Source: Sphingomonadales bacterium
GTDB lineage: Bacteria; Pseudomonadota; Alphaproteobacteria; SMXS01
NCBI GenBank assembly: GCA_022844405.1
Contig: JALHLV010000007.1
Coordinates: forward strand, 1 to 64,000
Length of the DNA stretch: 64,000 nt
Direction of reading: 5' to 3'
A program made the translations under genes and the position numbers. The notes under the pieces are model-generated. The model had not been told where the DNA came from. It ran no database searches and saw nothing but the letters and a program-made list of their open reading frames with translations. Shown here piece by piece: positions 10,391-45,260 of the stretch. How positions within the stretch are numbered: position 1 is the stretch's first letter; the number at the start of each line of letters is the position of its first letter.

Positions 10391-10398
10391 AGACATGG

Positions 10399-10836: not shown

Positions 10837-10878
10837 CGGTCCGTTCTATTCTTGATGCAATGGTCCAACCCTGCCCGC

Positions 10879-10942
10879 GTCCCTGAGCTTGTCGAAGGGC
10901 CTGCATCAGCGTTCATGCAGGCCCTTCGACAAGCTCAGGGAC
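10879..10942. repeat. Intergenic inverted repeat, family 1 copy A
   Basis: A perfect 28 bp inverted repeat with an 8 nt loop: left arm 10879-10906 and right arm 10915-10942, with the core CCTGAGCTTGTCGAAGGG. The same core, with one change (GCC for GCT), forms copy B at 13582-13654. It lies between the zinc-ribbon gene and the convergent extensin-like gene. This places it as a dispersed palindromic repeat that can also act as a bidirectional transcription barrier. Confidence 0.9.
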
Positions 10943-10980
10943 ACGGTGAAAAAGGTGCACTGCATCTCCCCATCTGAAGA

Positions 10981-11721
10981 TCACTCGCAGATCCGGTAGC
11001 CATTCCGGCGCTCGATAAGATCGAAGTGCAAATGGTCCGCATGGGCCGCGTCGGTGCCAGGACCCAGCACCGTGGTGAAATACGCGCAGGCGCCGCCCCG
11101 GATCGCCGCCCGGAAGGCTCGGGCGTCGTCGGCGCTGCCCGGCCGGTCCATGATCGGCACCGCATCGCGGTCGCTGAATGAAATGCCGGCGATGTCGATG
11201 GCGTTGGCGTGTGCGTGCTCGCTGACCTTGGATTCGCCGTCGCCGCGCCGCGAGCGGCACTGATAGGAATCGCCGGTCGAGATGGCGATCGGCGTCGCCT
11301 TCAGGTGCAGTGTGGCGGACGGGAGCAGCACGTTTCTGGTCCACAAGGCGAGCGCCCTGGCCACCTCGCATCTCGTCGTCACCGCCGGTTTCAGCTCGAT
11401 CCCGACCGATGACACCGTCAGCGGGCGCTCGGCGCCGCAGCCGTCCTCGCCGGTGATCGGCTCCAGCACCGCGAACCTCACGCCCAGCGCCCTCAGCGCC
11501 GCCTCGCAGCCCAGGGCCTGGGCTTCGTCGTGAACGGGTGTGGGCGGCGGAGATGTGTCGTCTGGCAGTGGATCGGCCAGCAACGTGGGTGCCGCAGGCT
11601 CCAGCGCCGTCACGTCGATCGGCGCCGGCGCGGCCTCATGCACCTTCGGTGACCGGGTGAACGCCACGACGGCGACCAGCCCCACCAGCAACATGGTGAA
11701 AAGCAGGCCGATCTGCTTCAC
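10981..11721 (-). CDS. Extensin-like / peptidoglycan-hydrolase-fold protein
   Basis: 246 residues. An N-terminal membrane anchor (about 5-22) is followed by a Pro/Ala-rich linker (25-65) and an extensin-like C-terminal domain. Histidine/aspartate motifs SEHAHANAIDIAGI and HADHLHFDL match the zinc ligands of LAS-type D,D-peptidases such as MepA, and conserved cysteines are present (GCEAAL, DGCGAE, YQCRSRR). It probably acts on peptidoglycan in the periplasm. It lies three bases beyond the L,D-transpeptidase gene's stop and is likely in one operon with it. Confidence 0.85.
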   Translation of the reverse strand: MKQIGLLFTMLLVGLVAVVAFTRSPKVHEAAPAPIDVTALEPAAPTLLADPLPDDTSPPPTPVHDEAQALGCEAALRALGVRFAVLEPITGEDGCGAERPLTVSSVGIELKPAVTTRCEVARALALWTRNVLLPSATLHLKATPIAISTGDSYQCRSRRGDGESKVSEHAHANAIDIAGISFSDRDAVPIMDRPGSADDARAFRAAIRGGACAYFTTVLGPGTDAAHADHLHFDLIERRNGYRICE

Positions 11722-11724
11722 CGC

Positions 11725-12738
11725 CTAGTCCTCGAAGACGACCGTGACGCCCGGCTCGACCATCTTCGCCAGCGCCTCGGCGTCCCAGTTGGTCAGCCGG
11801 GCGCAGCCATGGCTGAAATGCTTGCCGATGGGCGAGGGCTCGGCGGTGCCGTGGATGCCGTAGGTCGGTTTGTCGAGGCCGATCCAGACGGTGCCCACCG
11901 GCCCGTTCGGACCGGGCGGTATCTGCATGGCCTTGGTGTTCTCGCCCTGTTTGAAGTTGACGTCCGGGCGGTACGAATAGTCGGGGTTGCGCACCACCAC
12001 CTTCACCTTGTGGGTGCCGCTGGGGCTGGGCAGCGCGTCGCTGCCGACGGTGACCGGGAAGAACGCCAGCAGCTTGCCGTCGGCGCCGAACGCCCGCAGG
12101 CTCGACGTCGCACGGCTGACCGTGACCTTGGCGGCCTTGCCGGTTTCCGGGCGCTGGCGCAGCGCGGCGACGGTGATCTCGGTGCCGGCCTTGCTCCAGT
12201 CCGCGTCCGGGTTCAGCAGCGTTATCAGCTTGATGTCCATGTGGAAGCGTTCTGCGAGCATCTCGTCGGCGCCGGTGAACGAGAGGTGCTTCAGCTTCGC
12301 CATCTCGGCATAGTCGGCCGGGATCTCGGCGACGAACGGGCCTTTCAGGTCCTCGTCGGTGATGGTGTAGGTGGTGAACACCGGTGCGCCGTCGGCCGAC
12401 AGCTTGGCCCAGGACTCGGCGTCCAGCTTGCCGTCCGATTGCAGGCCGTTGGCCTGCTCCCAGGCGGCCAGCGCCTTGGCGACGTTGTCGCCCATATAGC
12501 CGTCGATCACACCGGGCGAGAAATCCTGGCCGTCGAGCAGCACCTGCACCCTGAGGGCGAGCGCGCTGCGCGCATCGGCCTTGATCTCCGCGCCGTCGAA
12601 TGCGGCGGCGTTGATCTGCTCGGCTGTGAACGTCTCCTCGGCCGTATTGTCGGCAGCCGGCTTTTCAGACTCGGCGGCATGGACCGCGAACGGAAACAGC
12701 AGGACCGTGCAGGCGAGGGAAAGACGGGAGAGCGACAT
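11725..12738 (-). CDS. L,D-transpeptidase (YkuD) with peptidoglycan-binding domain
   Basis: 337 residues from the ATG that gives a clean Sec signal peptide (cleavage near VHAAESE, about residue 22). A PG_binding_1-like segment spans about 60-110 (LALRVQVLLDGQDFSPG...), and the YkuD catalytic domain spans about 205-335. Active-site residues are His296 (GIHGTAE), His310 and Cys312 in SHGCARL. It would form 3-3 peptidoglycan cross-links or attach proteins to the wall. It sits immediately upstream of the extensin-like gene. Confidence 0.93.
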   Translation of the reverse strand: MSLSRLSLACTVLLFPFAVHAAESEKPAADNTAEETFTAEQINAAAFDGAEIKADARSALALRVQVLLDGQDFSPGVIDGYMGDNVAKALAAWEQANGLQSDGKLDAESWAKLSADGAPVFTTYTITDEDLKGPFVAEIPADYAEMAKLKHLSFTGADEMLAERFHMDIKLITLLNPDADWSKAGTEITVAALRQRPETGKAAKVTVSRATSSLRAFGADGKLLAFFPVTVGSDALPSPSGTHKVKVVVRNPDYSYRPDVNFKQGENTKAMQIPPGPNGPVGTVWIGLDKPTYGIHGTAEPSPIGKHFSHGCARLTNWDAEALAKMVEPGVTVVFED

Positions 12739-12958
12739 GGGCCACCGCGCGTTGTGATCGGTGACACGTGAACAATCGGCGTGTCCCACGGTTCCAATCC
12801 TGGTTCCGTAAGGTCACCATCCCATGATCCGGCCATGAACGCGATCGGCGGCGCCACGGTCTCTCCGCGCGATGTACTCGGCCTCGATGCCGGCCGCTGC
12901 GGCCGGCTGCGCCAACGCTATCTGGATTAGCCCCCTGCGCCTGCGCTAGCCTCGCGCC

Positions 12959-13564
12959 ATGAAACCCCGAGCGATTTCCCGTGCCGAACTGCCCGTCGAC
13001 ACCATGGCGATGGCGCGCTTCCTGATCGGCAAGCTGCTGGTGCGCGACACCCCGGAAGGCCGCCGCACCGGACGGATCGTCGAGACCGAGGCCTATCCGC
13101 CGGGCGATGCCAGCGGTCACCATTTCCGGGGCGAGACGGCCGCCAACCGCTCCATGTTCCTCGAGCCGGGCAGGGCCTATGTCTATTTCATCTACGGCGT
13201 CCACTTCATGCTCAACGTCAGCTCGGAGCCGCCGCGAACCGGCGGCGGCGTGCTGCTCCGCGCGCTGGAACCGGTCGACGGCATCGAGCTGATGCAGGCA
13301 AGGCGCGGTCCGGTCCGCGACCGCGATCTGGCGCGAGGGCCGGGAAGGCTGGCGCAGGCCATGGCCATCGGGCCGGAGCTCAATGGCACAGACATGTGCC
13401 AGGAAGGGCCGATCTGGCTTGCCGAAGCGCCGAAGCCGGTGGACGAAATCGGCGTCAGCATCCGTATCGGCATCACGAAGGAAGCTCATCAATTGCGGCG
13501 CTATTTCGAGCGCGGCAATCCCAGCGTCAGCGGTTCAACTGCACTCAATCGTTCCGACGGTTGA
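12959..13564 (+). CDS. mpg: 3-methyladenine DNA glycosylase (AAG/Mpg family)
   Basis: 201 residues, the normal size of the bacterial AAG family. Key motifs are FLIGKLLVR near the start, the catalytic Glu in RIVETEAYPPGD, HHFRGETAANRSMF, GRAYVYFIYGVHFMLN (base-flipping tyrosines) and GPGRLAQAMAI. It removes alkylated and deaminated purines from DNA. It stands alone, with repeat copy B directly after its stop. Confidence 0.95.
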   Translation: MKPRAISRAELPVDTMAMARFLIGKLLVRDTPEGRRTGRIVETEAYPPGDASGHHFRGETAANRSMFLEPGRAYVYFIYGVHFMLNVSSEPPRTGGGVLLRALEPVDGIELMQARRGPVRDRDLARGPGRLAQAMAIGPELNGTDMCQEGPIWLAEAPKPVDEIGVSIRIGITKEAHQLRRYFERGNPSVSGSTALNRSDG

Positions 13565-26097: not shown

Positions 26098-27798
26098 TTG
26101 ACCCACGAACCGCCCGTGAACCCGCACCGCATCGACGTCACCACGCTGGGCGACCTGTTGCTGCGCGCCGCCGACCGGTGGCCGGACAACGACGCCGTGG
26201 TGTTTCCCGATGGCCGCCGGACCTTCGCCCAACTGGCCGCCCGCGGCTACGAGACCGCCCGGTCGCTGATCGCGCTGGGCGTCCGGCCCGGCGAGCATGT
26301 CGGCATCCTGATGCCCAACGGCCTGACCTTCCTCGACCTGCTGTTCGGCTGCGCGCTGGCGGGCGCCGTGCCCGTGCCGCTCAACGGCCGCTACAAGGCG
26401 CATGAGATGGGCTATGTGGTCGAGAACGCCGATCTCGTCGCGCTGCTGACCAGCGACACCATCTCGGAGTTCGCCGACTTCGCGGCCATCCTGAACGGCG
26501 CGTTTCCCGACCTGAAGCATCAGGCCGATCCGCCCCGCGTGTCGCTGGCGGGCGCGCCGATGCTGCGCACGCTGGTGATGGTTGGCGCGCCGGTGCCCGG
26601 TTTCATGGACGGGCGCGATTTCGAGGCGCTGCGGAGTGGCGCCACCGATCAGGACGTGGACCGCTGCCGGGTCGCCGTCGCGCTCAAGGATCCGTGCGTC
26701 ATGATGTACACCTCGGGCACCACGGCCAATCCGAAGGGTTGCCTGCTGTCGCACGAGGCGGTGATCCGCAACGCCTTCGCCATGAACCGCGAGAAATACT
26801 TCTTCGGCCCCGACGACCGCTGCTGGGATCCGCTGCCCCTGTTCCACATGGCGGCGATCCTGCCCATGCTGACCATGTTCACGGGCGGCGCGGCGATGCT
26901 CTCCATGCTGCATTTCGAGCCGGGCGCGGCGCTGCGGATGATCGAGGAGGAGCGGGCGACCGTCCTCTTCCCGCTATTCCCGACGGTGATGACCGGCCTG
27001 ATCAACCACCCGGACTTCGCCACGCGCGACCTCGGCCGCGTCCGCCGCGTTTCCAATACCGGCCCGGCCGACACGCTGCGCCAGTTCCAGGCCGCCATGC
27101 CGTGGGCGGTCCACACCAGCGCCTACGGCATGACCGAGAACGGCGGCGGCATGTGCATGGGCAGCCCGTCGGACAGCGAGGAACAGCGCATGGGTGCCTG
27201 CGGCACGCCGCTCAGCGGCATGGAGATTGCCATCATCGATCCCGAGACCGGCGCCGCGCTGCCGACGGGCGTGAAGGGCGAATTGAAGGTGCGCGGCTAT
27301 TCCGTCTTCGGCGGCTACTACAAGGACCCCGAGAAGACCGCCGAGGTGCTGCGCGACGGCTGGTTCCACACCGGCGATCTGTGCTCGGTGGATGCCGATG
27401 GCCACGTCACCTGCCACGGCCGCATCAAGGACATGCTGAAGGTGGGCGGCGAGAACGTGGCCGCCGTCGAGATCGAGGCCTTCCTGATGACCCATCCGGA
27501 GGTCAAGCTCGCCCAGGTGATCGGCGTGCCGGACGCGCGGTTGCAGGAGGTGGCGGCCGCCTTCGTCGAGCTGAAGCCCGGCGCGGCGGCGACCGGGGAG
27601 GAGATCATCGGCTTTTGCCGCAGCCGCATCGCCAGCTTCAAGGTGCCGCGCCATGTGCGCTTCGTCACCGACTGGCCCATGTCCGCCTCGAAGGTGCAGA
27701 AATTCCGGCTGCGCGAGATGTTCGAGGGCGGCTTTCCAGCCAGCGCCGATGACGGTAAGGTCGCGGCCGGAGCGCGACCAACGGGGAGACGGTCATGA
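26098..27798 (+). CDS. AMP-dependent acyl-CoA synthetase/ligase
   Basis: 566 residues from a TTG at 26098; GTG at 26116 is an alternative start. ANL-superfamily motifs are complete: P-loop YTSGTTANPKG, PLFHMAAIL, YGMTENGG, GWFHTGDLCS, GRIKDMLKVGGENV and the C-terminal catalytic Lys in SASKVQKFRL. It activates a carboxylic acid as its CoA thioester. The stop overlaps the start of a molybdopterin oxidoreductase by ATGA, an unusual pairing that suggests the two act on the same compound. Confidence 0.94.
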   Translation: MTHEPPVNPHRIDVTTLGDLLLRAADRWPDNDAVVFPDGRRTFAQLAARGYETARSLIALGVRPGEHVGILMPNGLTFLDLLFGCALAGAVPVPLNGRYKAHEMGYVVENADLVALLTSDTISEFADFAAILNGAFPDLKHQADPPRVSLAGAPMLRTLVMVGAPVPGFMDGRDFEALRSGATDQDVDRCRVAVALKDPCVMMYTSGTTANPKGCLLSHEAVIRNAFAMNREKYFFGPDDRCWDPLPLFHMAAILPMLTMFTGGAAMLSMLHFEPGAALRMIEEERATVLFPLFPTVMTGLINHPDFATRDLGRVRRVSNTGPADTLRQFQAAMPWAVHTSAYGMTENGGGMCMGSPSDSEEQRMGACGTPLSGMEIAIIDPETGAALPTGVKGELKVRGYSVFGGYYKDPEKTAEVLRDGWFHTGDLCSVDADGHVTCHGRIKDMLKVGGENVAAVEIEAFLMTHPEVKLAQVIGVPDARLQEVAAAFVELKPGAAATGEEIIGFCRSRIASFKVPRHVRFVTDWPMSASKVQKFRLREMFEGGFPASADDGKVAAGARPTGRRS

Positions 27799-29912
27799 CC
27801 ATCCAGCACAAGCGGACCTTCTGCCGCGTCTGCGAGCCGTCCTGCGGCATGATCGCCACCGTCGAGGACGGCAGGCTGACGGCGCTGCAGCCTGACCGCG
27901 AGCATCCGGTCACCAAAGGCTTCGTCTGCCACAAGGGCCTCTACGGCCTCGACATCCACAACGATCCGGACCGGCTGAACGTCCCGCTGAGGCGGGTTGG
28001 CCCCGGCAAGTTCGAGGAAATTTCCTGGGACGAAGCGCTGGACGGGATCGCCACCGGCCTGCAGCGCATCATCGCCCGGGACGGCGCGCGGGCGATTGCC
28101 GGCTACCGGGGCAATCCGTCCGCGTTCAATGCGTTGTTCGGACCGGCCTGGGGCAGCTTCATGGCCGGTCTGGGCGACGTCCGCATGTTCAGCTCGGGCA
28201 CCCAGGACGCGGCCAACAAGCCGGTCGGGGCCGAGGCCAGTTTCGGCAGCCGCACGGTCCACACCATCCCGGACATCGCCCACACGGATTTCCTGCTGAT
28301 CTTCGGCGAGAACCCGGCGGTCAGCCACATGACCTACATGTCGATCGCCGATCCGGTCGGCGTCTTGCGTGAGGCCGAGGCGCGCGGCGCGCGGATCGTC
28401 TATGTCAACCCGCGCACCATCGAGACCGCCCGCTTCGCCGGCAAGGTGCTCCACATCCGCCCCGACACCGACGCCTACCTGATGGCGGCCATGCTGCACG
28501 AGATCGACAGTACCGTGGGTTTCGACGCCGATGCGGTCGCCCGGCACGGCCGGAATGTCGATGAGCTGCGCGCCTTCGTGGCGGCTTATCCCGCCGAGCG
28601 TGTCGCGGGCATCACCGGCATCGACGCCGGCACCATCCGCGCGCTGGCCCGCGACTACGCGGCGGCAGCCAGCGCCGGCATCCATATCGCCACCGGCGTC
28701 AACATGGGCCGGCAGGGCACGCAGGCCTACTGGCTGATGAACATGCTGGCCTTCGTCACCGGCAATCTGGGCCGCAAAGGCGGCAACATCTTCTCGCCCG
28801 GCTTCTATACCCGCAGCGCGTCGGCGGGCCGCGGCAGCACTGACGAGGCCGAGTACCTGGACACGCCGTTCGGCGCGGTTCGTAAGCCCGGCGGCGTCGG
28901 CATCACCCTGCCCGGCGTGCTGATGGCCGACATGATCCTGGATGAGGGGGACCCGATCCGCGCCATGATCGTCAACGCGGGCAATCCGGTGCTGTCGGTG
29001 GGCGGCGAGGCGCGAACCCGCCGGGCGCTGGAGTCGCTGGAGCTGCTGGTCTGCGTCGACATCTACCGCAGCCCGACGGCCGAGATGGCGCATTACGTCC
29101 TGCCCGCCGCCGGGGCGTTCGAGCGCGAGGACGTCAACGCGCTGGGTATCGGGCTGCAGCACCAGCCCTTCGTGCAATATACCGACGCCGTCGTCGCGCC
29201 GGCGTTCGAGCGGAAGCCGGAATGGTGGATCTATGGCCAGCTGGCCCGGCGCATGGGCCTGCCTTCAATCCTCGACGAGGGAGACCACCCGGATCTCTGG
29301 GGCCGGATGAACGCCATGCTGCGCTCCAGCGGCCATTCGATGGACGAGTTGAGGCGCGACGAGGTGATCGTGCTCGCCCAGCCCGACCCTGAGGCATTCT
29401 TCGACAGCGTCATCCAGACCGAGGACAAGCGGGTGGAGTGCTTCCCGCCCATGCTCGCCGTAGCCCGCGAGCGGATGGAGGCGATCTTCCGCGAGCTCGA
29501 CGCCGAACCGCGCGGCCAGCTCAAGCTGATCACCCGCCGCGACGGCTACATGATGAACACCTGGTACGCCAACCTGCCGCGGATGAAGCGCAAGGGCAGG
29601 GACCGCAACTTCCTGCTGATGCATCCGGACGACGCCAGGTCCCGGCAACTCCACGATGGCGCAAAAGTGAATGTGCGGTCGCAATGGGGCGAGCGGGACA
29701 TCGAGCTGAAGTTCGACGCCGACATGATGCCGGGCGTGGTCGCGATCAACCATGGCTGGGGCCACGGCACCGCGGCGGGCATGCGGGTCGCCAGCGCCAC
29801 CGCCGGCGTCAACGCCAACGCGCTGCTGCCGTCCGGACCGGGCACGTTCGAGCCGGTGTCCAACCAGGCCCATATGACCGGTATTTCCGTCGAGGTAACC
29901 GTCGCGCGCTAA
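27795..29912 (+). CDS. Molybdopterin-dependent oxidoreductase (DMSO-reductase superfamily)
   Basis: 705 residues. The N-terminal [4Fe-4S] site is Cys10, Cys13, Cys17 and Cys45 (CRVCEPSCG and GFVCHKG). Molybdopterin segments follow, with GENPAVSHMTYMS, VYVNPRTIETARFAGKVLHI and the C-terminal dinucleotide-binding part (HPDDARSRQLHDGAKV, NHGWGHG). No Tat signal is seen, so the enzyme is likely cytoplasmic. It is translationally coupled to the acyl-CoA ligase. Family members oxidise or reduce formate, thiols, acids or N/S-oxides; none can be chosen here. Confidence 0.93.
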   Translation: MTIQHKRTFCRVCEPSCGMIATVEDGRLTALQPDREHPVTKGFVCHKGLYGLDIHNDPDRLNVPLRRVGPGKFEEISWDEALDGIATGLQRIIARDGARAIAGYRGNPSAFNALFGPAWGSFMAGLGDVRMFSSGTQDAANKPVGAEASFGSRTVHTIPDIAHTDFLLIFGENPAVSHMTYMSIADPVGVLREAEARGARIVYVNPRTIETARFAGKVLHIRPDTDAYLMAAMLHEIDSTVGFDADAVARHGRNVDELRAFVAAYPAERVAGITGIDAGTIRALARDYAAAASAGIHIATGVNMGRQGTQAYWLMNMLAFVTGNLGRKGGNIFSPGFYTRSASAGRGSTDEAEYLDTPFGAVRKPGGVGITLPGVLMADMILDEGDPIRAMIVNAGNPVLSVGGEARTRRALESLELLVCVDIYRSPTAEMAHYVLPAAGAFEREDVNALGIGLQHQPFVQYTDAVVAPAFERKPEWWIYGQLARRMGLPSILDEGDHPDLWGRMNAMLRSSGHSMDELRRDEVIVLAQPDPEAFFDSVIQTEDKRVECFPPMLAVARERMEAIFRELDAEPRGQLKLITRRDGYMMNTWYANLPRMKRKGRDRNFLLMHPDDARSRQLHDGAKVNVRSQWGERDIELKFDADMMPGVVAINHGWGHGTAAGMRVASATAGVNANALLPSGPGTFEPVSNQAHMTGISVEVTVAR

Positions 29913-31805: not shown

Positions 31806-32126
31806 TCTGAACTATTTTTTGGTTGCGGTCAGAGGCGGCAGGTTATGGCCCGAGAAGCCGGCATGGAGAACGCGGGCGGTGGCGAAGTGGCGCACGCATT
31901 TCTTGCCGACGCACGTGGAACCGGAGGCGTCTGGTCGATAGTCTTACCGTTTACATCCCTCTTTCCGGCGGCGCGAAACGTGGTAACCTGACGTCCTGCA
32001 GCGCGGCGGATATTTCGCATTGGGCCGACGCGCTGCCTAGACCGGCATCTCCGGGGGGAGAGCAGGCCGGTCCCGCATCTTAGAGGCCAGCATCGTTGTG
32101 AAGTGCCGCTCGCGAGGGGATGGGCA
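31806..32126. other. Intergenic region before the cytochrome cluster
   Basis: 321 bp with no convincing gene on either strand. Just after the secreted-protein stop there is a short TATTTTTTGG stretch that could help termination. The remainder should contain the promoter of the cytochrome cluster. I see no clear -35/-10 pair or long palindrome. GAGGGG at 32114-32119 is the likely ribosome-binding site for the next gene. Confidence 0.5.
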
Positions 32127-34562
32127 ATGCAGTGGTGTCGGTTTCGGCTGATGGCGGCTCTGGCCGCGATTTTCATGTTCGGTGCGGCTGTCTCGGGCGA
32201 GGCCCGGGCGCAGAGCATGCTCAGCGGCGACTATGTCGCCACCAATGCCCCGTACACGGAAAGCGAACGGGCAGGGCGCGAGGTCTGGTTCTTCGCGACG
32301 GCGTTCAACGACCGCTTCTTCACCTATGCCTATCCGCAGCGCCTCGGTGCCGCCATCGACTGGTACAAGGTGCTGGCGGCGGAACATCATGACCAGCTGT
32401 TCCAAGGCTGGGGCGCCATTCCCGATCCCGATTGCTGCATTCCCGGCGAAGCCGACTGCCCGGCCAAGAGCTTGGAGCAGACCTATGGCTTCCCCTATTG
32501 CCCGGGCGACTCCGACCTGCTGAACCATGTGGGCAAGGAGGGATACAAGGATCCCGCCTGCCTGTTCCAGGACGGCCCCTACAACATGTCGACGCCGCAC
32601 GGCGCCAAGGACCAGCGCCAGAGCGCCTGCGACCTGCGGTTCGGCACCTCGACCGGCGCGCTCGGGTTGCGGAAATTCCCCAATCCGCGCTTCGACGCGA
32701 AGAAATGGAAGGCGCTCAACGGCTCGCTGGCGTCATGGGACGGCTACCGAAAGTTCCTGTCGAATGACCCGGCCAAGGCGGACAGCCGGATGAACCGGCT
32801 GTTCGATGGTTCGATCGAGCCGCCGTTCCGCATCGGCATGGCCTGCGGCGCCTGCCACATCAGCTACAAGCCGGAGAATCCGCCCGCCGATCCCAACCAT
32901 CCCGAGTGGGAGAACATCGACGGCCTGGTCGGCAACCAGTACAGCCGCATCTCGCAGCTGCTCGCCTCGGGCATGGAGAAGCACCGGCTGGAATGGCAGC
33001 TCATCGGCTGGGCGCGGCCCGGCACGGTCGACACCTCGGCGCTGCCGATGGACACGGCCTCCAACCCGGGCACCATGAACGCCATCATCAACTTCATGAA
33101 GCGGCCGCTGCACGACCACGAGGTGCTGAAGTGGCGCAAGGCCTCGACCTGCGCCTCGGGCGCCGATCCGGCAGTTTGCTGGTGCGAGCCGGGCAAGCCC
33201 GGCAAGTGCTGGGAGCGGTCGCTGAAGACCGAGAAGGTCGCTCACGTCCTGAAGGGCGGCGAGGACTCCATCGGCTACAACGAAGCCATCCAGCGGGTTT
33301 ACTTCAACATCGGGTCGTGCGCCGAGCAGTGCTGGATGAACCATATCCCGGACCTGCGCGCCGTCGATCCGGCCCAGCGCAACTACGGCCAGACGCCGTT
33401 CGACATCGGCCAGTGCCGCCGCGACTGCGCCAGCTTCCGCGCGATCGAGGACCGGCTCGACGACGTGGTGGCGTTCTTCCTCACCGCGCGTCCGACCGAC
33501 CTCTTCACGGCGCGCGGCATGGGCAGCGAGCGCGACCTTGAAGTGGCGCTGGAGCGTGAGTTCGGCCCCGGCGCGGTCACCCAGGGCCGCAAGGTGTTCG
33601 CCCAGAGCTGCGCCCGTTGCCATTCCAGCCAGAAGGGACCTTACGACAACGTCGATTTCCGCGCCGTCGATCCGGCCGATCCGACCTTGCGGGTCGACTG
33701 GCTGGGCAACGACGAACCGACGCTTGCCTCGGAGGTCGGCACCTACAATGCGCGTGCGCTGCACGCCAACCACATGGAGAGCCGGGTCTGGGCGCAGTAT
33801 GCGTCGAACACGCTGCACCAGCGGCCGGCCGATCCCAACCTGAAGGAACTGCTGAAGGGGAATGGACGCGGCTACTACCGCAACATCTCGCTGCTCAGCG
33901 TCTGGGCGCATGCGCCGTTCATGCACAACAACGCCGTCGGCCCGGAGATCTGCGGCAAGCCGACCGATCCGGACTACGACCTCTACACGTCGCCCTATGT
34001 GGACGCCGCCGGCAAGGCGCTGGCCAATCCGCCGGCCTGCTGGCCGTTCGATCCATCGGTCGAAGGGCGCTACAAGCTTTACAAGGCGTCCATGGAGGAG
34101 CTGCTGAACCCGGCGTCGCGGGTGCCGAAGATGTTCATCACCCAGGACGACATCATCGTCGACGTGGCGCCCGAGCTGAAGATCGGCGACATCACCACGG
34201 GACTGACCCTGAAGATTCCCAAGGGCTTCCCGGCGGTGGCGCTGAACAGCCTGCGCTACAAGGACCTGATGCACGACATGGTGCTGCTCGAGCGGCACGA
34301 GGACAGGCTGGACGGCAAGTACAAGGGCGTGCTGACGCCGGCGCAATATGCCGACCTGAAGACCGGGCTCAAGGAACTGCGCGACCGGCTGCTGCGGGAG
34401 CGGGAGAAGGCTATCGTCGACATCACCGGCGATCCCAACACCTTCGTGCAACGCTACTATTCGAACGTGCTCGACCGGGTCGAGAACAAGGGCCACCGCT
34501 TCGGCGAGGACCTGTCGCCCACCGACAAGAAGGCGCTGATCGCCTTCATGGCGACGTTGTGA
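32127..34562 (+). CDS. Large dihaem c-type cytochrome, first gene of the cytochrome cluster
   Basis: 811 residues. A signal peptide ends near GEARAQS (about residue 29). Two haem c sites are visible: CGACH at 240-244 and CARCH at 495-499. The segment between them has many cysteines (for example CWCEPGKPGKC, CAEQC), so disulfides are likely. Near the C-terminal third, SVWAHAPFMHNNAVGPE resembles the W-x-x-APYLHNGSVP motif of the two later proteins, placing it in the same broad dihaem superfamily although it is larger. It is exported to the periplasm. Function is unknown; oxidation of an organic substrate or electron relay are candidates. Confidence 0.85.
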   Translation: MQWCRFRLMAALAAIFMFGAAVSGEARAQSMLSGDYVATNAPYTESERAGREVWFFATAFNDRFFTYAYPQRLGAAIDWYKVLAAEHHDQLFQGWGAIPDPDCCIPGEADCPAKSLEQTYGFPYCPGDSDLLNHVGKEGYKDPACLFQDGPYNMSTPHGAKDQRQSACDLRFGTSTGALGLRKFPNPRFDAKKWKALNGSLASWDGYRKFLSNDPAKADSRMNRLFDGSIEPPFRIGMACGACHISYKPENPPADPNHPEWENIDGLVGNQYSRISQLLASGMEKHRLEWQLIGWARPGTVDTSALPMDTASNPGTMNAIINFMKRPLHDHEVLKWRKASTCASGADPAVCWCEPGKPGKCWERSLKTEKVAHVLKGGEDSIGYNEAIQRVYFNIGSCAEQCWMNHIPDLRAVDPAQRNYGQTPFDIGQCRRDCASFRAIEDRLDDVVAFFLTARPTDLFTARGMGSERDLEVALEREFGPGAVTQGRKVFAQSCARCHSSQKGPYDNVDFRAVDPADPTLRVDWLGNDEPTLASEVGTYNARALHANHMESRVWAQYASNTLHQRPADPNLKELLKGNGRGYYRNISLLSVWAHAPFMHNNAVGPEICGKPTDPDYDLYTSPYVDAAGKALANPPACWPFDPSVEGRYKLYKASMEELLNPASRVPKMFITQDDIIVDVAPELKIGDITTGLTLKIPKGFPAVALNSLRYKDLMHDMVLLERHEDRLDGKYKGVLTPAQYADLKTGLKELRDRLLREREKAIVDITGDPNTFVQRYYSNVLDRVENKGHRFGEDLSPTDKKALIAFMATL

Positions 34563-34573: not shown

Positions 34574-35491
34574 ATGCACGCGCTCATCCGTACTGCCGTC
34601 GTCCTGTCGCTGGCCGCCGCCGGCCTCGCCGCCTGCGACAGGAAGCCCGACATCCCGTTCGCGCCCACCGACACCAGCCTGCGCGACCCGGACAATCCCA
34701 CGAAGGTGTTCTACACCGACATGGCCCGGGTCGAGCACGACTACCCGCTCACCCGCGAGCAGCGGCTGGCGCTGACGCCGGAGAACCTGAAGAGTTTCAC
34801 CCAGGAGGAAATCGACCAGATCTATGGCCGACTGACCGCCGGTCCGATCCCGAACGGCGGCCATGAGGGCGACCTGTTCTTTGCCCGAGGCGAGGACCTG
34901 AAGTCCCGGCTGGACGAGATCGTCGGCGGCATCGGCGGGCGCATCACCGACACCAAGGTAAAGACGCTGGAGAACGTCGGCCGCCATTTGTGGAAGGGCA
35001 AGATGTTCTACCGCGAGGAGGGCGTGCTGCGGAACTTCATCGAGGACCCGAAATCGCTCGATGCGCTGATCGACAACCCGGAGGCGATGATGAAGACCGA
35101 GATCGCCCGCAAGGGCTGGCTCGGCATGATCGACAAGCAGACCACCGTCTACCTGATGTTCCCGGCCAAGCTCTATTGTGGCCAGAGCCTGCTGGACGGC
35201 CGGCGCGAGTCCGTCATCGTCGACTACAACTATGGCGACGAGATCGCGGGCTACCAGGAGCGACCGGACAGTCTGGCAGGCCGCAACGGCCTGAGGGTGC
35301 GCGACGAGGTGCGCATGGTCCGGCCCGGCTTCTATCTGGGCCGCGCCTACATGAACCGGATCTTCCTGCTGAACTTCACCGTCTACAACGAGGCCGACGC
35401 CAAGGCGGGCGAGCAGGCGTTCCGCGACGGCGCACCCATCAAGGAGGACTGCTGGGCCGGCGAACAGGTTGCGCAGGCCGGTCAGAACTGA
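34574..35491 (+). CDS. Haem-less lipoprotein of the cytochrome cluster
   Basis: 305 residues; ATG with GAGGAGG SD, 11 bp after the first cytochrome. The lipobox is in AAAGLAACDRK (Cys near 21). There is no CxxCH. The body is rich in charged residues with segments TREQRLALTPENLKSFTQEEIDQIYGRL and VGRHLWKGKMFYREEGVLRNFIEDP. Two later cysteines (LYCGQS, EDCWAG) may pair. I do not recognise the family. Position suggests it is a membrane-anchored partner that docks the cytochromes. Confidence 0.75.
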   Translation: MHALIRTAVVLSLAAAGLAACDRKPDIPFAPTDTSLRDPDNPTKVFYTDMARVEHDYPLTREQRLALTPENLKSFTQEEIDQIYGRLTAGPIPNGGHEGDLFFARGEDLKSRLDEIVGGIGGRITDTKVKTLENVGRHLWKGKMFYREEGVLRNFIEDPKSLDALIDNPEAMMKTEIARKGWLGMIDKQTTVYLMFPAKLYCGQSLLDGRRESVIVDYNYGDEIAGYQERPDSLAGRNGLRVRDEVRMVRPGFYLGRAYMNRIFLLNFTVYNEADAKAGEQAFRDGAPIKEDCWAGEQVAQAGQN

Positions 35492-35536
35492 CCGGCCATG
35501 AAGGGGGCGGCAAAGGGGACGGGAGGAGGTTTGCCG

Positions 35537-37063
35537 ATGGCTGCTGCAATCGCCACGATCCTGGCAATGCCTTCCGTCTCCCGCGCTGCGCCGCTGCTGC
35601 TGGCCGATCCGGCGCGGCCCGGCGAGACGCAGCCCGCGCCCGGGCGGTCGCTCTTCGATGAACTGTTCAAGCCTGGCGGAACCTACGATTTGCCCTATCC
35701 GTTCACGCGGCTGAGCGCCGCCATCGAGCAGCGGAATGGCGGCGTGCGGCCGCGGGCGGTGTTGATCCCGCTGGGCCGTTCGCTGCAGCGGCTGTCGGCG
35801 GACCCCGACTATTTCGCTTCGCCGCGCGTGGTGCTGGGCGTCGATGCGGCGGGTGAAAGGGCCGTGTCCTATCTGAAGGACCGGCTGTTCATCGGCTACC
35901 AGCCGGCATCGGCGTCCATGGAGGTGATCAGCTACAACGAGTCGGCCGGCCGCTTCGAATTCCAGGTGGTCAGCAACTACACGGATGCGCGCCAGCCGCT
36001 GGTCGAATACGCCGACCGGGAATTGTGCACCAGCTGCCATCAGGGCCACGGCCCGATCTTTCCCATCGCCCAGTGGAACGAGACCAACGCCAATCCCGGC
36101 ATCGCCGCGCGGATGGCCGGGCTGGGCGCGGCATTTCATGGGGTGCCCGTGAAACGCGGCATCGACGAGCCCGACGCGCTGGACCAGGCGGTGTTGCGCG
36201 CCAACCGGTTGAGCCTCGCCCAATTCTACTGGCAACGGGTCTGCGCCGCCGCAACGGCCATGAAGCCCGCCGATTGCCGCGCCCGGCTGCTGCTCGCGGC
36301 GCTGCGCTGGCGGCTCGGCGGATCGCGCGGCCCGTGGCAAGCGGTCGAGGACGCGGATCTGGCGAAAGCCCTCCACGCTGCCGTCGCGACGCTGGCGCCC
36401 GCCGGACTGGCGGTGCCCAATCCCAGCCTGCCCGACCGCAATCCGCTGATCGAACTCGACGCCGGCGTGAAGCCCATGGAGGTCGTAGAGCCTGAAGGCG
36501 TCTACGACCCGGCCGCACCGCGCCCGCCGCGCCTGCTGGCCGCGCCATCGGATGATGTGCTGGCGACGGCAGTCGCGATTGTCGGCGAGTCCTTCGCGCC
36601 GGATGCCATCGCCCGGCTGGCGGCCGTGCTGGCGGGGCAGGGCGGCCACAGCGTCAGCTTCGCGGCTGCCTGCATTGTCGAGAATGCGGCCGGCGAAATG
36701 CGCTTCGAGTGCGTCGATCCATCGTTCGGCCTGTCGGGCTACGCGGCGGCCGGCGGTGGCGCTGTCACCCGACTGGTATTGAAGGGCTACGCGCCGCTCT
36801 CGGGACTGACGGTGCTATCCGGCAAGAATGGCGGCGAGTTGCACCTCGTCGAGAACGCCTATGGATTTCCGGCACGCCTCGCCACCGGCGAGCGCCTGTC
36901 GCCGCTGCGGCTCGCGGGCGGCAAGGCGGAAATCACCGTCACCGACGACATCGCCACCCTGCGACACGCCGTCACGGCGCTGGACCTGTCGGATGACGGC
37001 CCGCTGCAGGCGTCGGCGATTGCGCCCGCGCTGGCCGCCTCCATCGCGCGGGCGCCGTCATGA
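35537..37063 (+). CDS. Monohaem c-type cytochrome-like exported protein
   Basis: 508 residues from the ATG with a GGGAGGAGG SD; an upstream in-frame ATG at 35498 lacks one. A signal-like N-terminus ends near SVSRAAP. There is a single haem motif, CTSCHQGHGP, at 164-168 in the chosen numbering. The rest has no recognisable domain: an Ala-rich helical middle and a beta-rich C-terminus with VENAYGFPARLATGERLSPL. The stop overlaps the next start by ATGA. Function unknown; probably part of the same periplasmic complex. Confidence 0.78.
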   Translation: MAAAIATILAMPSVSRAAPLLLADPARPGETQPAPGRSLFDELFKPGGTYDLPYPFTRLSAAIEQRNGGVRPRAVLIPLGRSLQRLSADPDYFASPRVVLGVDAAGERAVSYLKDRLFIGYQPASASMEVISYNESAGRFEFQVVSNYTDARQPLVEYADRELCTSCHQGHGPIFPIAQWNETNANPGIAARMAGLGAAFHGVPVKRGIDEPDALDQAVLRANRLSLAQFYWQRVCAAATAMKPADCRARLLLAALRWRLGGSRGPWQAVEDADLAKALHAAVATLAPAGLAVPNPSLPDRNPLIELDAGVKPMEVVEPEGVYDPAAPRPPRLLAAPSDDVLATAVAIVGESFAPDAIARLAAVLAGQGGHSVSFAAACIVENAAGEMRFECVDPSFGLSGYAAAGGGAVTRLVLKGYAPLSGLTVLSGKNGGELHLVENAYGFPARLATGERLSPLRLAGGKAEITVTDDIATLRHAVTALDLSDDGPLQASAIAPALAASIARAPS

Positions 37064-38661
37064 AGACATGGCTGTCCCGGCTGGCCGACCGGATCGTCGC
37101 GTTGTTGCTCTGTCTGTGGCGCCGCCGCTGGTGGATCGTTCTCGCCGTCGTCCTGATGCTGCTCGCCCTGGGATTGTGGATATGGTGGCATTTCAGCCGG
37201 GACGAGCCACAGGTATTCGACGATCCCGTGCAGCATTTCAAATATGGCTCTACCGGCGGCGACCGTATCGCCGGCATTCCCATCGGCATCTGGAAGGGCC
37301 TGCCCAAGCTCTGCGCGCCCTATTTCGGCGGCGACACCTGGGAAGCGCTGGGCTTCAATTTCGAGCCCGGCATGGACCGGCCGGTGGGCACCACCATGCG
37401 GCGCACGGTCGGCCTCGACCGCGTGTTCCTCAACTGCGCCGCCTGCCATACCGGCACCTGGCGTGCCGATCCCACGGGCAAGCGGACGCTGGTGGTCGGC
37501 ATGCCGGCAAACCGGCTGGACCTCGTGCGGTTCGCGCGCGGGCTCGGGGCCTGCGCCGCCGACGAGCGGTTCAATCCGTGGCAGGTGATCCAGGCGGCCG
37601 AGGACGCCGGCGCGCAGTATTCGGCGATCGAGAAGTACCAGCTCACCCTCGCTGTGCCGGTCATGAAGGAGTTCCTGATCCTGGCGCGGCACCGCTTCCG
37701 CTTCTTCGACCGCGAGCCGGAATCCGGCGTCGGGCGGTTCGACACCTTCAACCCCGCCAAGGCGCTGCTCAACTGGCCGCTCGAGACGCTGCCGGACGAG
37801 GAGATGATCGGCAATGTGGACTATCCCTCGCTGTGGCTGCAGGGCAAGCGCGAGGGCATGCGGCTGCACTGGGACGGCAACAATGATTCCGTCGAGGAGC
37901 GCAACCGCAGCGCCTCGTTCGGCAGCGGCGGCGTACCGACCACGCTCGATCGGGACTCGGTCGAGCGCATCGCCGGATGGCTGCGTGACCAGGCCGTGCC
38001 GCCCGCGTATCCGTTTCCCATCGACCCGGCGCGCGCGACGCGGGGCAAGCAGCTCTACGGCGTCTATTGCGCCGCCTGCCACGGCACAACCGGCCGGGAT
38101 TTCTCCGGCGATTTGGTCGGCACGGTGGTGCCCATCGACAAGATCCGCACCGATCCGTGCCGACTCGACAACTACACCTACGCGCTTGCCGTCGAGCAGT
38201 CGAACCTCTACGCCGCCTATTCGGACGAGCGGTTCCGCCGCTTCCGCAAGACCCATGGCTACGCCAACATGCCGCTCGACGGGATCTGGCTGCGCGCGCC
38301 GTACCTGCACAACGGCTCGGTCCCGACCATCCGCGATCTGCTGGAGCCCGCCGAGAGCCGTCCCGCCGTGTTCTACCGGGGCAACGACGTGATCGACCGT
38401 CGGAAGCTGGGCTTCGTCTCCGACCTGCCGTCGCAGAGCAACGAAACATTCTTCCGTTACGAAACCCGCTGCGTCGACGGTCCCGACCGCAAGATCGCCT
38501 GCGCGAAGGAGTTGAATCCGGAAAACCTGTTCCCGGACAACCGCTGCGTCGCCGGTCCCTGGGCTGGCAACGGCAACCGGGGCCATGACGGTCCTGAATA
38601 CGGCACCGACCTGCTGCCCGACGACAAGGATGCCATCGTTGAGTACCTCAAGACCTTCTGA
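37060..38661 (+). CDS. Dihaem c-type cytochrome, RoxA-like group (paralogue 1)
   Basis: 533 residues. One N-terminal membrane helix (about 24-44) anchors it. Haem sites are CAACH at 126-130 and CAACH at 337-341. The stretch GYANMPLDGIWLRAPYLHNGSVPT (about 400-423) is the motif I associate with RoxA-like rubber oxygenases and dihaem MauG/CcpA-like proteins, where it packs near the second haem. It shares QHFKYGSTGGDRIAGIP with the next protein. Start overlaps the preceding stop (ATGA). It is likely a periplasm-facing oxidase, peroxidase or oxygenase. Confidence 0.85.
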   Translation: MKTWLSRLADRIVALLLCLWRRRWWIVLAVVLMLLALGLWIWWHFSRDEPQVFDDPVQHFKYGSTGGDRIAGIPIGIWKGLPKLCAPYFGGDTWEALGFNFEPGMDRPVGTTMRRTVGLDRVFLNCAACHTGTWRADPTGKRTLVVGMPANRLDLVRFARGLGACAADERFNPWQVIQAAEDAGAQYSAIEKYQLTLAVPVMKEFLILARHRFRFFDREPESGVGRFDTFNPAKALLNWPLETLPDEEMIGNVDYPSLWLQGKREGMRLHWDGNNDSVEERNRSASFGSGGVPTTLDRDSVERIAGWLRDQAVPPAYPFPIDPARATRGKQLYGVYCAACHGTTGRDFSGDLVGTVVPIDKIRTDPCRLDNYTYALAVEQSNLYAAYSDERFRRFRKTHGYANMPLDGIWLRAPYLHNGSVPTIRDLLEPAESRPAVFYRGNDVIDRRKLGFVSDLPSQSNETFFRYETRCVDGPDRKIACAKELNPENLFPDNRCVAGPWAGNGNRGHDGPEYGTDLLPDDKDAIVEYLKTF

Positions 38662-40120
38662 TGCGAGACCCACGCCGCCCAAGTGGCGCCGCCGCGCCCT
38701 CATCGCGCTGGCCGTCGTGCTGCTGGGCTGCGTTCTGGCGGGCGTCCTGTTCTGGTGGAAGTTCCTCAAGACCGAGGACCAGGCGTTCACCGCCGATCCC
38801 GAAACCGCTGCCAGCGCCGATCTGCAGCGCTTCAAGTACGGCACCTTGGGCGGCGACCTGATCGCCGGCATTCCCTATCCGATCCTGTTCATCCTGCCGC
38901 GCGTGTTTCCCGACAAGATCGGCGAGGGTGGCGGCTACGGCGCGTTCGGCCTGCCGTGGGAGCCGGGCCAGCGCCTCCCCATGGGCTTTTCGATCAAGCG
39001 CAAGGGTTTCGAGCGGGTCACCGTGAACTGCGCGCTGTGCCACACCACCCAGTACCGGCTCGTCCCCGGCGAGAACCCGCGCTTCGCCGTCGGCGGGCCC
39101 GGGCACACGGTCGATATTCAGCGGCTGCTGCGGTTCCTGTTCGCCTGCGCCCATGACGAACGGTTCACCGCCGACCGGCTGTTGCCCGAAATGGCGTTGC
39201 ACTTCCCCATGGATGCGGCCGACGTGGCGCTTTACAAGATGGTGCTAATCCCCGGCATGCGCGCCGCGCTGCTCGAGGCCGAGCGTCAGCTCGCCTGGAT
39301 GGACAAGCGGCCCGACTGGGGACCCGGCCGCGACGATGCGTTCGGCCTGCCGAAATTCGTGCTGACCCAGGCGGACGACGACGGCACCTTGTCGACCACG
39401 GATTTCCCGTCGCTGTGGAAGTTGGGCCAGCGCAAGGGCGGGCTTTTTCACGCGGGCGGCGAGGCGACCGAGCTGTCGATCGTGGTGGCCACCTCGGCGC
39501 TGGGCACCGGCGCGTTGCCCGGCCCGGGCTTCGACCGCCACAACGACTGGACCGAAGCCTTCATCCAGGATCTGGCGCCGCCGCCATTTCCCGGCCAGAC
39601 CGATCCGGCGAGAGCGGCGGAGGGATCATCGGTGTTCGCCCGGCACTGCGCTGGATGCCACGCCATCGGCGGCGAGCGCACCGGCACGTCGATTCCGCTC
39701 GCCGAGATCGGCACCGATCCGGAACACGTGAAGACCTGGCAGGAAAAGGACGCGCGGCGGATGAAGAAGGTCGGCGCCGCGCTCGGCGTCAAGGAGGCGC
39801 CGATGATCGCGGCCGCCGGCTACGTAGCCAAGGCGCTGGTCGGCGTCTGGCTGCTCGGGCCTTACCTGCACAACGGCTCGGTGCCGACGCTGATGGATCT
39901 GCTGGCACCGCCGCACGAGCGTCCCCGCATATTCTGGCGCGGCTACGACCTGGTGGACCAGGATCGTGTAGGGTTCGTGTCCTCAGGCCCCGAAGCCGAG
40001 AAGGCCGGCTTCCGCTTCGACACCGGCCTTCGCGGCAACGGCAATGCCGGCCATGCCTGGGGTACGGACCTGACGCCCGAGCAGAAGCTGGCACTGATCG
40101 AGTATCTGAAGCGCCTGTAG
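38630..40120 (+). CDS. Dihaem c-type cytochrome, RoxA-like group (paralogue 2)
   Basis: 496 residues from the ATG 32 bp inside the preceding gene; other starts (TTG 38639, ATG 38585) are in frame. One membrane helix follows KWRRR (about 22-45). Haem sites are CALCH at 134-138 and CAGCH at 340-344. LLGPYLHNGSVPTLMDLL (about 408-425) repeats the key motif of paralogue 1. Pairwise similarity (FKYGxxGGDxIAGIP, ACHxxx, W-x-x-x-PYLHNGSVPT) shows a tandem duplication. It is the last gene of the cluster. Confidence 0.85.
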   Translation: MPSLSTSRPSDARPTPPKWRRRALIALAVVLLGCVLAGVLFWWKFLKTEDQAFTADPETAASADLQRFKYGTLGGDLIAGIPYPILFILPRVFPDKIGEGGGYGAFGLPWEPGQRLPMGFSIKRKGFERVTVNCALCHTTQYRLVPGENPRFAVGGPGHTVDIQRLLRFLFACAHDERFTADRLLPEMALHFPMDAADVALYKMVLIPGMRAALLEAERQLAWMDKRPDWGPGRDDAFGLPKFVLTQADDDGTLSTTDFPSLWKLGQRKGGLFHAGGEATELSIVVATSALGTGALPGPGFDRHNDWTEAFIQDLAPPPFPGQTDPARAAEGSSVFARHCAGCHAIGGERTGTSIPLAEIGTDPEHVKTWQEKDARRMKKVGAALGVKEAPMIAAAGYVAKALVGVWLLGPYLHNGSVPTLMDLLAPPHERPRIFWRGYDLVDQDRVGFVSSGPEAEKAGFRFDTGLRGNGNAGHAWGTDLTPEQKLALIEYLKRL

Positions 40121-42497: not shown

Positions 42498-42588
42498 CCG
42501 GCGGTCCTCATCGACGGACCGGACGTTGCCCGCGATGGGCGCTGGCCTGTATGCTGGGGGTCCGCCCCGCGCCGAACGGAGAAGTGCC

Positions 42589-42987
<399 letters not shown>

Positions 42988-43887
42988 CTATTGCCACAGC
43001 GCCGCTTCGCGCGCCGGCACCGGGCGGATGCGCGGATAGTAGGGGCTGCGCAGCGGATCACCGGGCTTCAGCTTCAGCTTCAGGCCGGGCGTCAGCGGCA
43101 CGGTGGGGCGGCTGTCGGGACGGGTGGCAAAGACGATGTCGTCGCCGTAGAGCCGTGCCGACAGGGTGCGGCGGCGCCGGCCATTGGTGGTGTGGCCGCC
43201 GCCGTGCAGCACGCCGGGGTGCAGCAGCACAACGTCGCCGGGGGTGATGTCGAACGAGACGATGTTCCACTTCTCACGCTCTTCCTCTATATTAGGAAGG
43301 CGCGGTAAGTCCTTGCCGTAGAAACCTTTTGTCGGATCGACGGCCGCGTCGGGCGGGCTGAATCCGTCATACATGACCTGGCGGTGGGAGCCGGGGATGA
43401 ACTCCAGGCATTCCTCCTTGGGGATCGGGTCGAGGGTGATCCACATGGAGGCGATCTGCTCGCCGGCGACCGGCCAGTAGGGCGTGTCCTGGTGCCACGG
43501 CGTCTTGCGGCAAAAGCCGCCTTCCTTGACGAAGACATGGTCGAACAGTAGCCAGATATTCTCCGAGCCGATCAGCTTCGAGATCATGTCGGCGATCGGG
43601 CTGTCGTAGAGCAGACGCTGGAACTCGGGCGTCACGGCGAAGTGGCGCACCATGTCCCTGAACTCGCCGGGCAGGCCCTTGAAGAAGGTCTGGATGTTGG
43701 GGCTGCCGCTGGCGATGATGCGCTGGATGCCGTAGTCGATCAGCGTCAGCCATTCCGGGTGCAGCGCCTGGGGCAGATAGACGACGCCGTCGCGCCGGTA
43801 CTGCTCGATCACCGCGGGCGTGATCAGCCCCAGCGGATCGTCCCATGGCTTGGCGCTGTTCGGCGCGATCTGTTCGGCAAGCTGCAT
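42988..43887 (-). CDS. Phytanoyl-CoA dioxygenase (PhyH) family protein
   Basis: 299 residues from the ATG after GGGGAGAG. Iron ligands are H132-x-D134 in [12 protein letters not shown] and a late His in [16 protein letters not shown] (His228 likely), with an Arg a few residues on ([14 protein letters not shown]) for 2-oxoglutarate. PhyH enzymes hydroxylate CoA esters, sterol-like or other natural compounds. Substrate not predictable. Single gene, 83 bp from the next upstream gene on the same strand. Confidence 0.92.
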
Positions 43888-43970
43888 CCCACTCTCCCCG
43901 TTGGTCGCAAGCACTCGTGACGGTAAAACTAGCGCGCTTTTGCGCGCCGCGAAACTGTCAGGAATCGCCG

Positions 43971-45260
43971 TCAGGATTTCGCCGTCGTCACCGGCGCCAG
44001 CAGCCTGGTGCCGTAGAGCGCGCCCAGCGCCGCGACCACGAACACCAGCACCTCGCCGCCATGGGCGGGCAGGGCGAAACCGACGAGGTTGATGCCGAGG
44101 ACGTAGAGGCCGACGACGACCGCCGCGCTCAGCACGGCGATGCCCAGCGATTTCGCGAATGCCCCGGCGGTCTTCGAGCGCGAACGCTTGCGCAGCAGGC
44201 CGCCGACCACGCCGCCGACCAGCGCCGCGCCGAGGAAGCGCCATGGGAATACGAACTCGACCTCGGCCGCCGCGCCGTCGAGGCCGCCGCCGCGGGCGGT
44301 GACCTTGCCGGTGCCGACGGATTCCGAGCGGATCGAGACCTTTGCGTTGCCGGCCTTGTCGAGCATCGCCTCGGTCGCCGACAGCCGGCCCATGGTGCTG
44401 GCAAGCTGCAGCGTGTTGTCGCGCGCGGCATCGGCCGCCTGTGCGCTCACCAGCACATCGGCGGTTTCCAGACCCCAGCCCTGGATGCGCGGCGGGGTGA
44501 TGGCGACGCCCAGCGTCGGCCGCACCTTCAGGATCAGCTCTTCGCCGGCGGGCGCCACGTTGGAGACGACGGTGACCTTTACCTCGGCGTCGGGCGCCTC
44601 GGCGGCTACCTTGATGTCCCTGTAGGGCGGGGCGGTCTGGGCGATGCTGACCGTGTCCGGGTCGGTGGCGACGGGGCCGAGCACCTGGAAGGCGATGGGC
44701 GACGCCAGGGTTTTCGCGCCGCTGGCGTCCACCTGGATGACGCCGACGCTGATGCCGCCCTCGAACCGGTTGGTCGCGGGATTGAAGCGCAGCGGGGCGC
44801 GCGGGAACGCGACCGCCTTCAGGATCAGTTCCTTTGCCTGTGTATCCGTGGTCTGCACCACGCCCTGGAAGACGGCGGCCTGGCTGCGCATGGAATCCGG
44901 AATCGACAGCTTGACGATGTCCTTCGTGGTCTGCTCCGCGGTGGCGTCGAGCTTGATGTAGCGGGTGTCGCCCAGCCGGAGCGGCGCGGTCGGGGCAACC
45001 GGCACGGCTTCCGGCGCGGCGGGTTCCACCGGCCTGACCGCCACTTCAGGAGAGATCGCCGGCGTCTCGAGCAAGACCGCGCGGTTGCGCAGGATGTGCT
45101 GGCGCAGGGTCCGGATCTCCTCGGGCGACCGCACGGCCTCGGTCGCTGGGAGCTCCCGCACGTGTCGCGGCGGGTCCTGCGCCGGCGACGACGCCGGCCA
45201 CAGCGCCGTCACCGCCATTGTACACAGCGCCAATCCGCGAGCCAGATCAATCATTTGCAT
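43971..45260 (-). CDS. Exported protein with C-terminal membrane helices, unknown function
   Basis: 429 residues from the ATG with a GAGGGG SD; a GTG 21 bases upstream is in frame. It has a signal peptide (ending about SSPAQDPP), a Pro/Ala-rich linker, then a long beta-rich region (about 85-320) with repeated Ig-like strands ([44 protein letters not shown]). Three membrane helices follow (about 325-345, 360-385, 395-415), with a basic KRSRSK loop. I know no family. The layout suggests an adhesion-type or tethering envelope protein. Confidence 0.7.

Follow-up and report, generated by a model that had tools for sequence, protein, structure and literature searches.

A haem-less protein with a lipobox encoded inside a RoxA-like di-haem cytochrome cassette: a candidate lipid-handling partner

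The window, a 64,000-nucleotide stretch of DNA from a Sphingomonadales bacterium, encodes a group of cytochromes, and among their genes lies one for a protein of 305 residues that has no haem motif. A sequence-only reading had described this protein as a lipoprotein of no recognised family, possibly an anchor or substrate-binding partner of the cytochromes and perhaps the marker gene for the whole system. The question is what a protein without haem does among haem enzymes, and how closely it is tied to them. Among RoxA-like di-haem proteins, two of which are encoded here, are rubber oxygenases and, in Pseudomonas aeruginosa, the pair that forms the oleate diol synthase, according to the available portions of two published accounts (PMC10837239; PMC4496055). 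The reading we favour, held tentatively and with a little under even confidence, is that the 305-residue protein is a membrane-anchored, haem-less partner to a di-haem system that oxidises lipids in the periplasm, and that it probably handles lipid itself. We know of no role for RoxC and most other RoxA-like members. If the protein is a dedicated haem-less partner, one sub-type of RoxA-like systems could be recognised from its sequence and the complex purified through it, and clusters of other haem oxidases with the same domain would be linked to these systems. As a lipoprotein in an operon it is ordinary; it is of interest for a domain common to unrelated haem-oxidase clusters.

The gene, its cassette and its N-terminus

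The open reading frame is a real gene under purifying selection, because its product is 54-98% identical to nine relatives (alignment A1, in which the 54% row, L010, is shortened by a contig end) and the Ka/Ks ratios of the window gene are low (0.16 against L002, 0.10 against L003, 0.12 against L004, 0.22 against L022 and 0.21 against L023). A purine-rich GAGGAGG stands partly inside and partly just ahead of the 11-nt gap that separates the gene from cyt819, and the genome holds a single copy (E<=1e-3). The sequence-only reading was right about the length of the protein, the absence of CxxCH, the LAAC lipobox and the position between cytochromes, with cyt819 upstream and cyt521, cyt533 and cyt511 downstream (Table 1). 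Its statement that no family is recognised also stands: no Pfam, NCBIfam or PHROGs family matched at E<=1, and solved structures gave only chance-level matches by sequence (E 0.9 or worse). The Pfam and NCBIfam searches, at the same threshold, returned none of the periplasmic substrate-binding families of transporters. The protein has a lipobox cysteine, Cys21, ending its signal sequence, as expected of a bacterial lipoprotein, and none of the two CxxCH motifs expected of RoxA, RoxB or RoxC. AlphaFold gave no usable model of either the full protein (10 aligned rows) or the core (9 rows), with a mean pLDDT of 34.5 for both.

Table 1. Positions of the cassette genes, of parts of the 305-residue protein and of related clusters (window numbering unless a locus is named)
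Feature	Position	Strand	Description
cyt819	32103..34562	+	Large protein, 2 CxxCH; weak RoxA/CCP similarity (NF040606 31.2 bits, cut-off 150); start codon not certain
Haem-less protein with apparent membrane anchor, 305 aa	34574..35491	+	ATG start; no CxxCH
Signal sequence with lipobox	34574..34636	+	LAAC, Cys21, Asp at +2; from sequence
Core domain, about residues 68-271	34775..35386	+	Common to stand-alone proteins of 147-192 aa; hhalign E 1.8e-19
cyt521	35498..37063	+	1 CxxCH; no Pfam/NCBIfam family
cyt533	37060..38661	+	RoxA-like di-haem, 2 CxxCH, N-terminal hydrophobic stretch
cyt511	38585..40120	+	RoxA-like di-haem, 2 CxxCH, N-terminal hydrophobic stretch; start perhaps inner ATG at 38630
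Gammaproteobacteria-like cluster with core domain	L020 8438-17890; L086 843-9518; L087 9736-18415

A plasmid search with the 305-residue protein as query gave no match, viral contigs searched with its profile gave 51 pattern matches and no relatives, and literature titles and abstract beginnings held no account of the protein or its cassette. The protein is real and rare, and its family is without description in those titles and abstract beginnings. The copy in L003 is 94% identical to the window protein; the name Candidatus Kuenenia in the public record of that sequence is probably wrong.

The gene is the second of a tight five-gene cassette, cyt819-305aa-cyt521-cyt533-cyt511, in which 6 nt lie between it and cyt521, cyt521 overlaps cyt533 by 4 nt, and cyt533 and cyt511 also overlap. 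Thirteen distinct full-length loci were compared, the window included (L002, L003 and L004 agree in contig and match length with the hits in G007, G005 and G006, and were therefore taken as the same and counted once). The gene lies directly downstream of cyt819 in all of them, separated from it by -4 to 26 nt for the start codons chosen. The five-gene order is kept in nine of the ten relatives readable to the cassette end (L002, L003, L005-L009, L022 and L023); in the tenth, L021, cyt521 was not found, and the cassettes of L004 and L010 stop at contig ends. In L006-L008 cyt521 aligned only in part, at 33-38% identity.

Upstream of the cassette, positions 26098-29912 of the window hold genes which we take from their sequence to be AMP-ligase-like and molybdopterin-oxidoreductase-like. 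A molybdopterin-oxidoreductase-like gene also lies upstream in L002, L004 and L022; none was found in the stretches read of L005-L010, L021 and L023, and the L003 contig starts at the cassette, leaving its upstream neighbours out of view. Downstream, positions 42526-42987 presumably encode an MsrB-like methionine sulphoxide reductase and positions 42988-44244 a phytanoyl-CoA-dioxygenase-like protein, both named from sequence, and open reading frames resembling these two lie near the cassette in L022.

The window protein has the features of an exported lipoprotein, and most of its orthologues have an anchor-like N-terminus by one means or another. Classed from sequence and hydropathy alone, a strict lipobox is present in 6 of the 13 orthologues, or 7 if the LGAC of L023 is counted. 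Five others (L006-L010) have an N-terminal hydrophobic stretch without a lipobox, so that 12 of the 13 carry an apparent anchor, and the L021 orthologue has a plain signal-like N-terminus that lacks a lipobox. The lipobox described earlier as perfect is therefore so in the window protein but is not a trait of the family. The broader proposal of an anchored partner is supported by the conserved cassette and the frequency of apparent anchors.

The five loci of the window's genus have Asp at position +2 of the lipobox. In Escherichia coli, Asp at this position retains a lipoprotein in the inner membrane. By analogy, the lipoproteins of the window's genus would stay in that membrane, in agreement with the hydrophobic N-termini seen in the other orthologues and in cyt533 and cyt511. 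A conserved segment, PDIPFAP..SL.DPDNP, lies between the anchor and the core. Two cysteines, C202 and C293, are present in all eight full-length orthologues of alignment A2, and both short homologues in that alignment lack cysteine at these positions; the pair probably forms a disulphide.

Co-occurrence with the cassette cytochromes

Among 385 alphaproteobacterial genomes, the 305-residue protein was found in 5 (E<=1e-3) and cyt819 in 7 (E<=1e-10), these being the same 5 together with G079 and G360; no genome had the 305-residue protein only. The cyt819 of G079 is a fragment at a contig end in a genome that is 82% complete, and the G360 relative is 34% identical. In a sample of the order, 6 of 10 genomes, the window's own included, encode the 305-residue protein. 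A strong pair of matches to NF040606, the di-haem cytochrome c peroxidase model related to RoxA, occurs in five of these six and in none of the four genomes without the protein, where the best matches have E values of 2e-5 to 1e-4 or are absent. In the sixth genome, G006 (78% complete), the contig breaks off within cyt521. The tie to the neighbouring cytochromes that the sequence-only reading had proposed to check is thus present in five of five class genomes and 13 of 13 loci, all with cyt819.

At L072 (positions 3567-13165), which belongs to G360, a gene for an OYE-type flavoprotein is followed by relatives of cyt533, cyt511 and cyt819 and then by a GMC-type oxidoreductase gene, with a patatin-like gene adjoining. 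No homologue of the 305-residue protein was found in the 19.5 kb read of this locus or in the G360 genome at E<=1e-3. Because L072 has relatives of these three cytochromes without the protein, the protein marks a sub-type and not the whole di-haem family. Its suggested value as a marker gene is accordingly narrowed: it holds for the orthologues and fails for the system as a whole.

A core domain found beside other haem oxidases

The core domain, with the motifs WxGKxF, AKxY..S..DGxE..DY and RDExR..PGxYLG, is the common part of a larger family without a name, six short homologues of which were found. Samples at the level of the phylum yielded L019 (147 aa), L020 (155 aa) and L062 (192 aa); the profile matched in 5 of 398 genomes there, a count that includes the window's own genome and a false match in G581. 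The latter (20 bits) was rejected, as by its sequence we take the protein to be the small subunit of exonuclease VII. Two more came from L020's family, in which 3 of the 66 genomes sampled had a match, that of L020 itself among them. A further one, L064, lies on a Nocardia replicon and has a signal-like N-terminus; it was found with L020 as query and not directly with the window protein. Aligned by hhalign, the orthologues matched four of the short homologues at E 1.8e-19, and the core of the 305-residue protein has three insertions that are absent from L019. In one more class sample the single positive among 219 genomes was L020's own, and among 66 sampled genomes of G599's family it was G599 itself, so the wider family looks rare in these samples.

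Five of the six short homologues have no evident signal or membrane anchor, and five of the six are encoded among genes for other haem or flavin oxidases (DyP-like, catalase-like, GMC, animal haem peroxidase). L019 has a cyt819 relative (28% identical), a GMC oxidoreductase, the domain, an unnamed 430-aa protein, and DyP-like and catalase-like proteins, and L062 has GMC, the domain, a relative of the 430-aa protein, and DyP-like and catalase-like proteins. In L020, L086 and L087 the domain is followed by a catalase-like protein and an animal haem peroxidase, and the other strand encodes the 430-aa protein and a DyP/catalase-like fusion; this cluster is possibly a bacterial lipid-oxidation pathway. 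As these three loci come from one bacterial family, the independent cases among the five clusters number about three. The catalase-like label is weak (21.4 bits in Pfam for L020 against a cut-off of 25, and no match for L062), and the DyP-like matches fall on both sides of their cut-offs. L064 has the domain without any of these oxidase partners.

Frequent homologues away from cytochrome genes had been named beforehand as evidence that would count against the proposed partnership. Among the orthologues there are none (0 of 13), but in the wider family 5 of the 6 short homologues, each read over 18-19.5 kb, lie without a relative of the cassette cytochromes (L019 is the exception), and 4 of those 5 are beside other haem oxidases. 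The five oxidase clusters thus resemble the window cassette in sharing the core domain, there as a short protein, but differ from it in that other oxidase families replace the RoxA-like pair and the domain is without an evident anchor. A bolder view, which we consider rather doubtful, is that the core is a haem-less lipid- or hydroperoxide-handling module, not described before, that would serve chemically different bacterial lipid oxygenases: c-type di-haem proteins of the RoxA-like kind in the Alphaproteobacteria and, outside them, proteins of the animal-haem-peroxidase, catalase-like and DyP-like kinds. The window cassette would then be a new membrane-anchored bacterial oxylipin machine.

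Likeness of motifs led us to suspect, presumptively, a link with DUF4334/GXWXG (PF14232, PF14231; structure 4mve), in which the motif order is similar, W-G-K-x-F and then a Y..D motif. Pfam gave no match to either family for the 305-residue protein, two orthologues or four short homologues. With hhalign, a combined profile reached E 1e-3 against 9 and 2e-3 against 14 DUF4334 sequences, with a probability of 12-22% at best; none of 200 shuffled decoys and none of 104 chunks of real families scored as high. The short-homologue profile alone gave E 0.026 and 0.008, with 3 of 200 shuffled decoys scoring as high, the orthologue or short-homologue profile alone had hhalign probabilities of 1-6%, and HMMER gave no support (E>100 at Z 20000). 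Addition of five DUF4334 members lowered the combined score from 30.9 to 28.3 and raised those of the short-homologue and orthologue profiles from 20.5 to 23.5 and from 19.9 to 25.3, respectively. The link is a weak lead and not membership; if true, it would supply a known fold (4mve). No DUF4334 protein was found in a sample of 58 class genomes or in 14 control genomes, and those located were on plasmids except for one on a Nocardia record. At L073 1489-3165 this Nocardia gene comes immediately after a gene that from its sequence looks GMC-oxidase-like, an arrangement also seen for the core domain in L019 and L062.

The di-haem neighbours and a possible role

Both cyt533 (158.1 bits) and cyt511 (173.6 bits) passed the 150-bit cut-off of NF040606 in hmmscan; in a six-frame search of the whole genome the cyt511 frame of the window alone exceeded it, and cyt533 did not. 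Their joint profile matches RoxA (4b2n) at E 5.1e-28, and with 42-70 bits (best 69.5) they fall short of the RoxA, RoxB and RoxC equivalogs, for which the cut-offs are 900-1000 bits. RoxC proteins are described in the accessible text of one report as mostly predicted haem-containing lipoproteins (PMC10837239). The cassette therefore recalls the RoxA/RoxB/RoxC group both in its RoxA-like neighbours and in having a predicted lipoprotein, but the 305-residue protein, unlike members of that group, lacks a haem motif and did not match their models.

The roles of RoxA residues W302 and F317 were taken from the part of PMC4496055 that was available, and their equivalents were counted on the printed alignment to RoxA 4b2n. 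In alignment A5, which is without L002, L004, L007 and L010 for both types and without L003 for the cyt533 type, the W302 equivalent is present in 9 of 9 cyt533-type and 5 of 10 cyt511-type rows, and the F317 equivalent in 8 of 9 and 1 of 10, respectively. The window cyt533 keeps both residues. The cyt511 proteins of the window, L003, L022 and L023 have Ala and Leu at the two positions and that of L021 has Ala and Phe, whereas L005, L006, L008, L009 and L072 have Trp at the W302 position.

The oleate diol synthase of P. aeruginosa, PA2077/PA2078, oxygenates fatty acids in the periplasm, as stated in the accessible parts of two papers (PMC4496055; PMC5155153). There PA2077, a dioxygenase, keeps the W302-equivalent Trp, and PA2078, which has Ser at this position, converts the hydroperoxide (PMC4496055). 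The window pair is like PA2078-PA2077 (FadCcp) in being a tandem of RoxA-related di-haem proteins, one with and one without the W302 equivalent, a likeness drawn from the published description and residues and not from sequence comparison (PMC4496055; PMC5155153). Unlike the window cassette, PA2078-PA2077 has no haem-less partner and no counterpart of cyt819 or cyt521 that is mentioned in the available text of PMC4496055.

Because the cyt533/cyt511 pair resembles PA2077 (Trp kept) and PA2078 (Ser), we infer that lipid is oxidised in two steps in the periplasm and that the haem-less protein acts there as the substrate-handling or docking subunit. Under this scheme cyt533, with its Trp302 and Phe317 equivalents, would carry out the dioxygenase-like step, and cyt511, whose window copy has neither, a PA2078-like step converting the hydroperoxide. 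The 305-residue protein may help these haem enzymes to handle a fatty substrate, and binding of the substrate by it is plausible. The core domain would bind a hydrophobic compound (an unsaturated fatty acid, a terpenoid or a hydroperoxide) in, or released from, the membrane, and would present it to, or pass it between, cyt533 and cyt511. Complex formation, a lipid substrate and binding by the core are thus predictions drawn from the sequences and their arrangement. The PDIPFAP..SL.DPDNP segment and the two cysteines would then suit the protein to the periplasm and help it to dock on the di-haem proteins.

A somewhat unlikely alternative is that the 305-residue protein is a structural anchor or helps in assembly, tethering exported cyt819, which seems to have only a signal sequence, to the membrane beside cyt533 and cyt511 without touching the substrate. 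This would account for the position of the gene directly after cyt819 at every locus, for anchor-like N-termini reached by differing means in all but one orthologue, and for the long conserved segment that separates anchor from core. The polar motifs conserved in the core, however, resemble a binding or active site more than a tether, the L021 N-terminus is signal-like without a lipobox, and anchoring is unlikely where the short homologues stand beside other haem oxidases with no evident signal.

Those same polar residues, invariant in very distant members and including K, Y, S, D, E, Y, D, E and R, could belong to an enzyme, and the domain stays while its partner haem enzymes vary. That the 305-residue protein itself converts a lipid hydroperoxide from the haem proteins, as an isomerase, cyclase or hydrolase, is nevertheless improbable in our judgement, as no known enzyme family was matched in Pfam, NCBIfam or solved structures, chance-level matches aside. 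We give very little credence to the view that the protein is a common envelope lipoprotein whose function has nothing to do with its operon neighbours: the tie to the cytochromes is known here solely from genome data, which leaves some room for this view, but the orthologues were found only with cyt819, at all loci and in all positive genomes of the class sample.

For a lipid-handling partner of the di-haem proteins, the genes around the cassette also bear on the kind of substrate: lipid hydrolases beside some cassettes speak for a lipid, and the failure to find their relatives beside the window's and several other cassettes speaks against it. The hydrolase search covered stretches of 8-19 kb and the 64 kb window. 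By tblastn with three query proteins (E<=1e-6), no patatin or LCAT-like relatives were found in the window, L002-L005, L009, L010, L022 or L023. A patatin gene lies near the cassette in L006, L007 and L008, which form one clade, and in L072, and an LCAT-like gene is present in L021.
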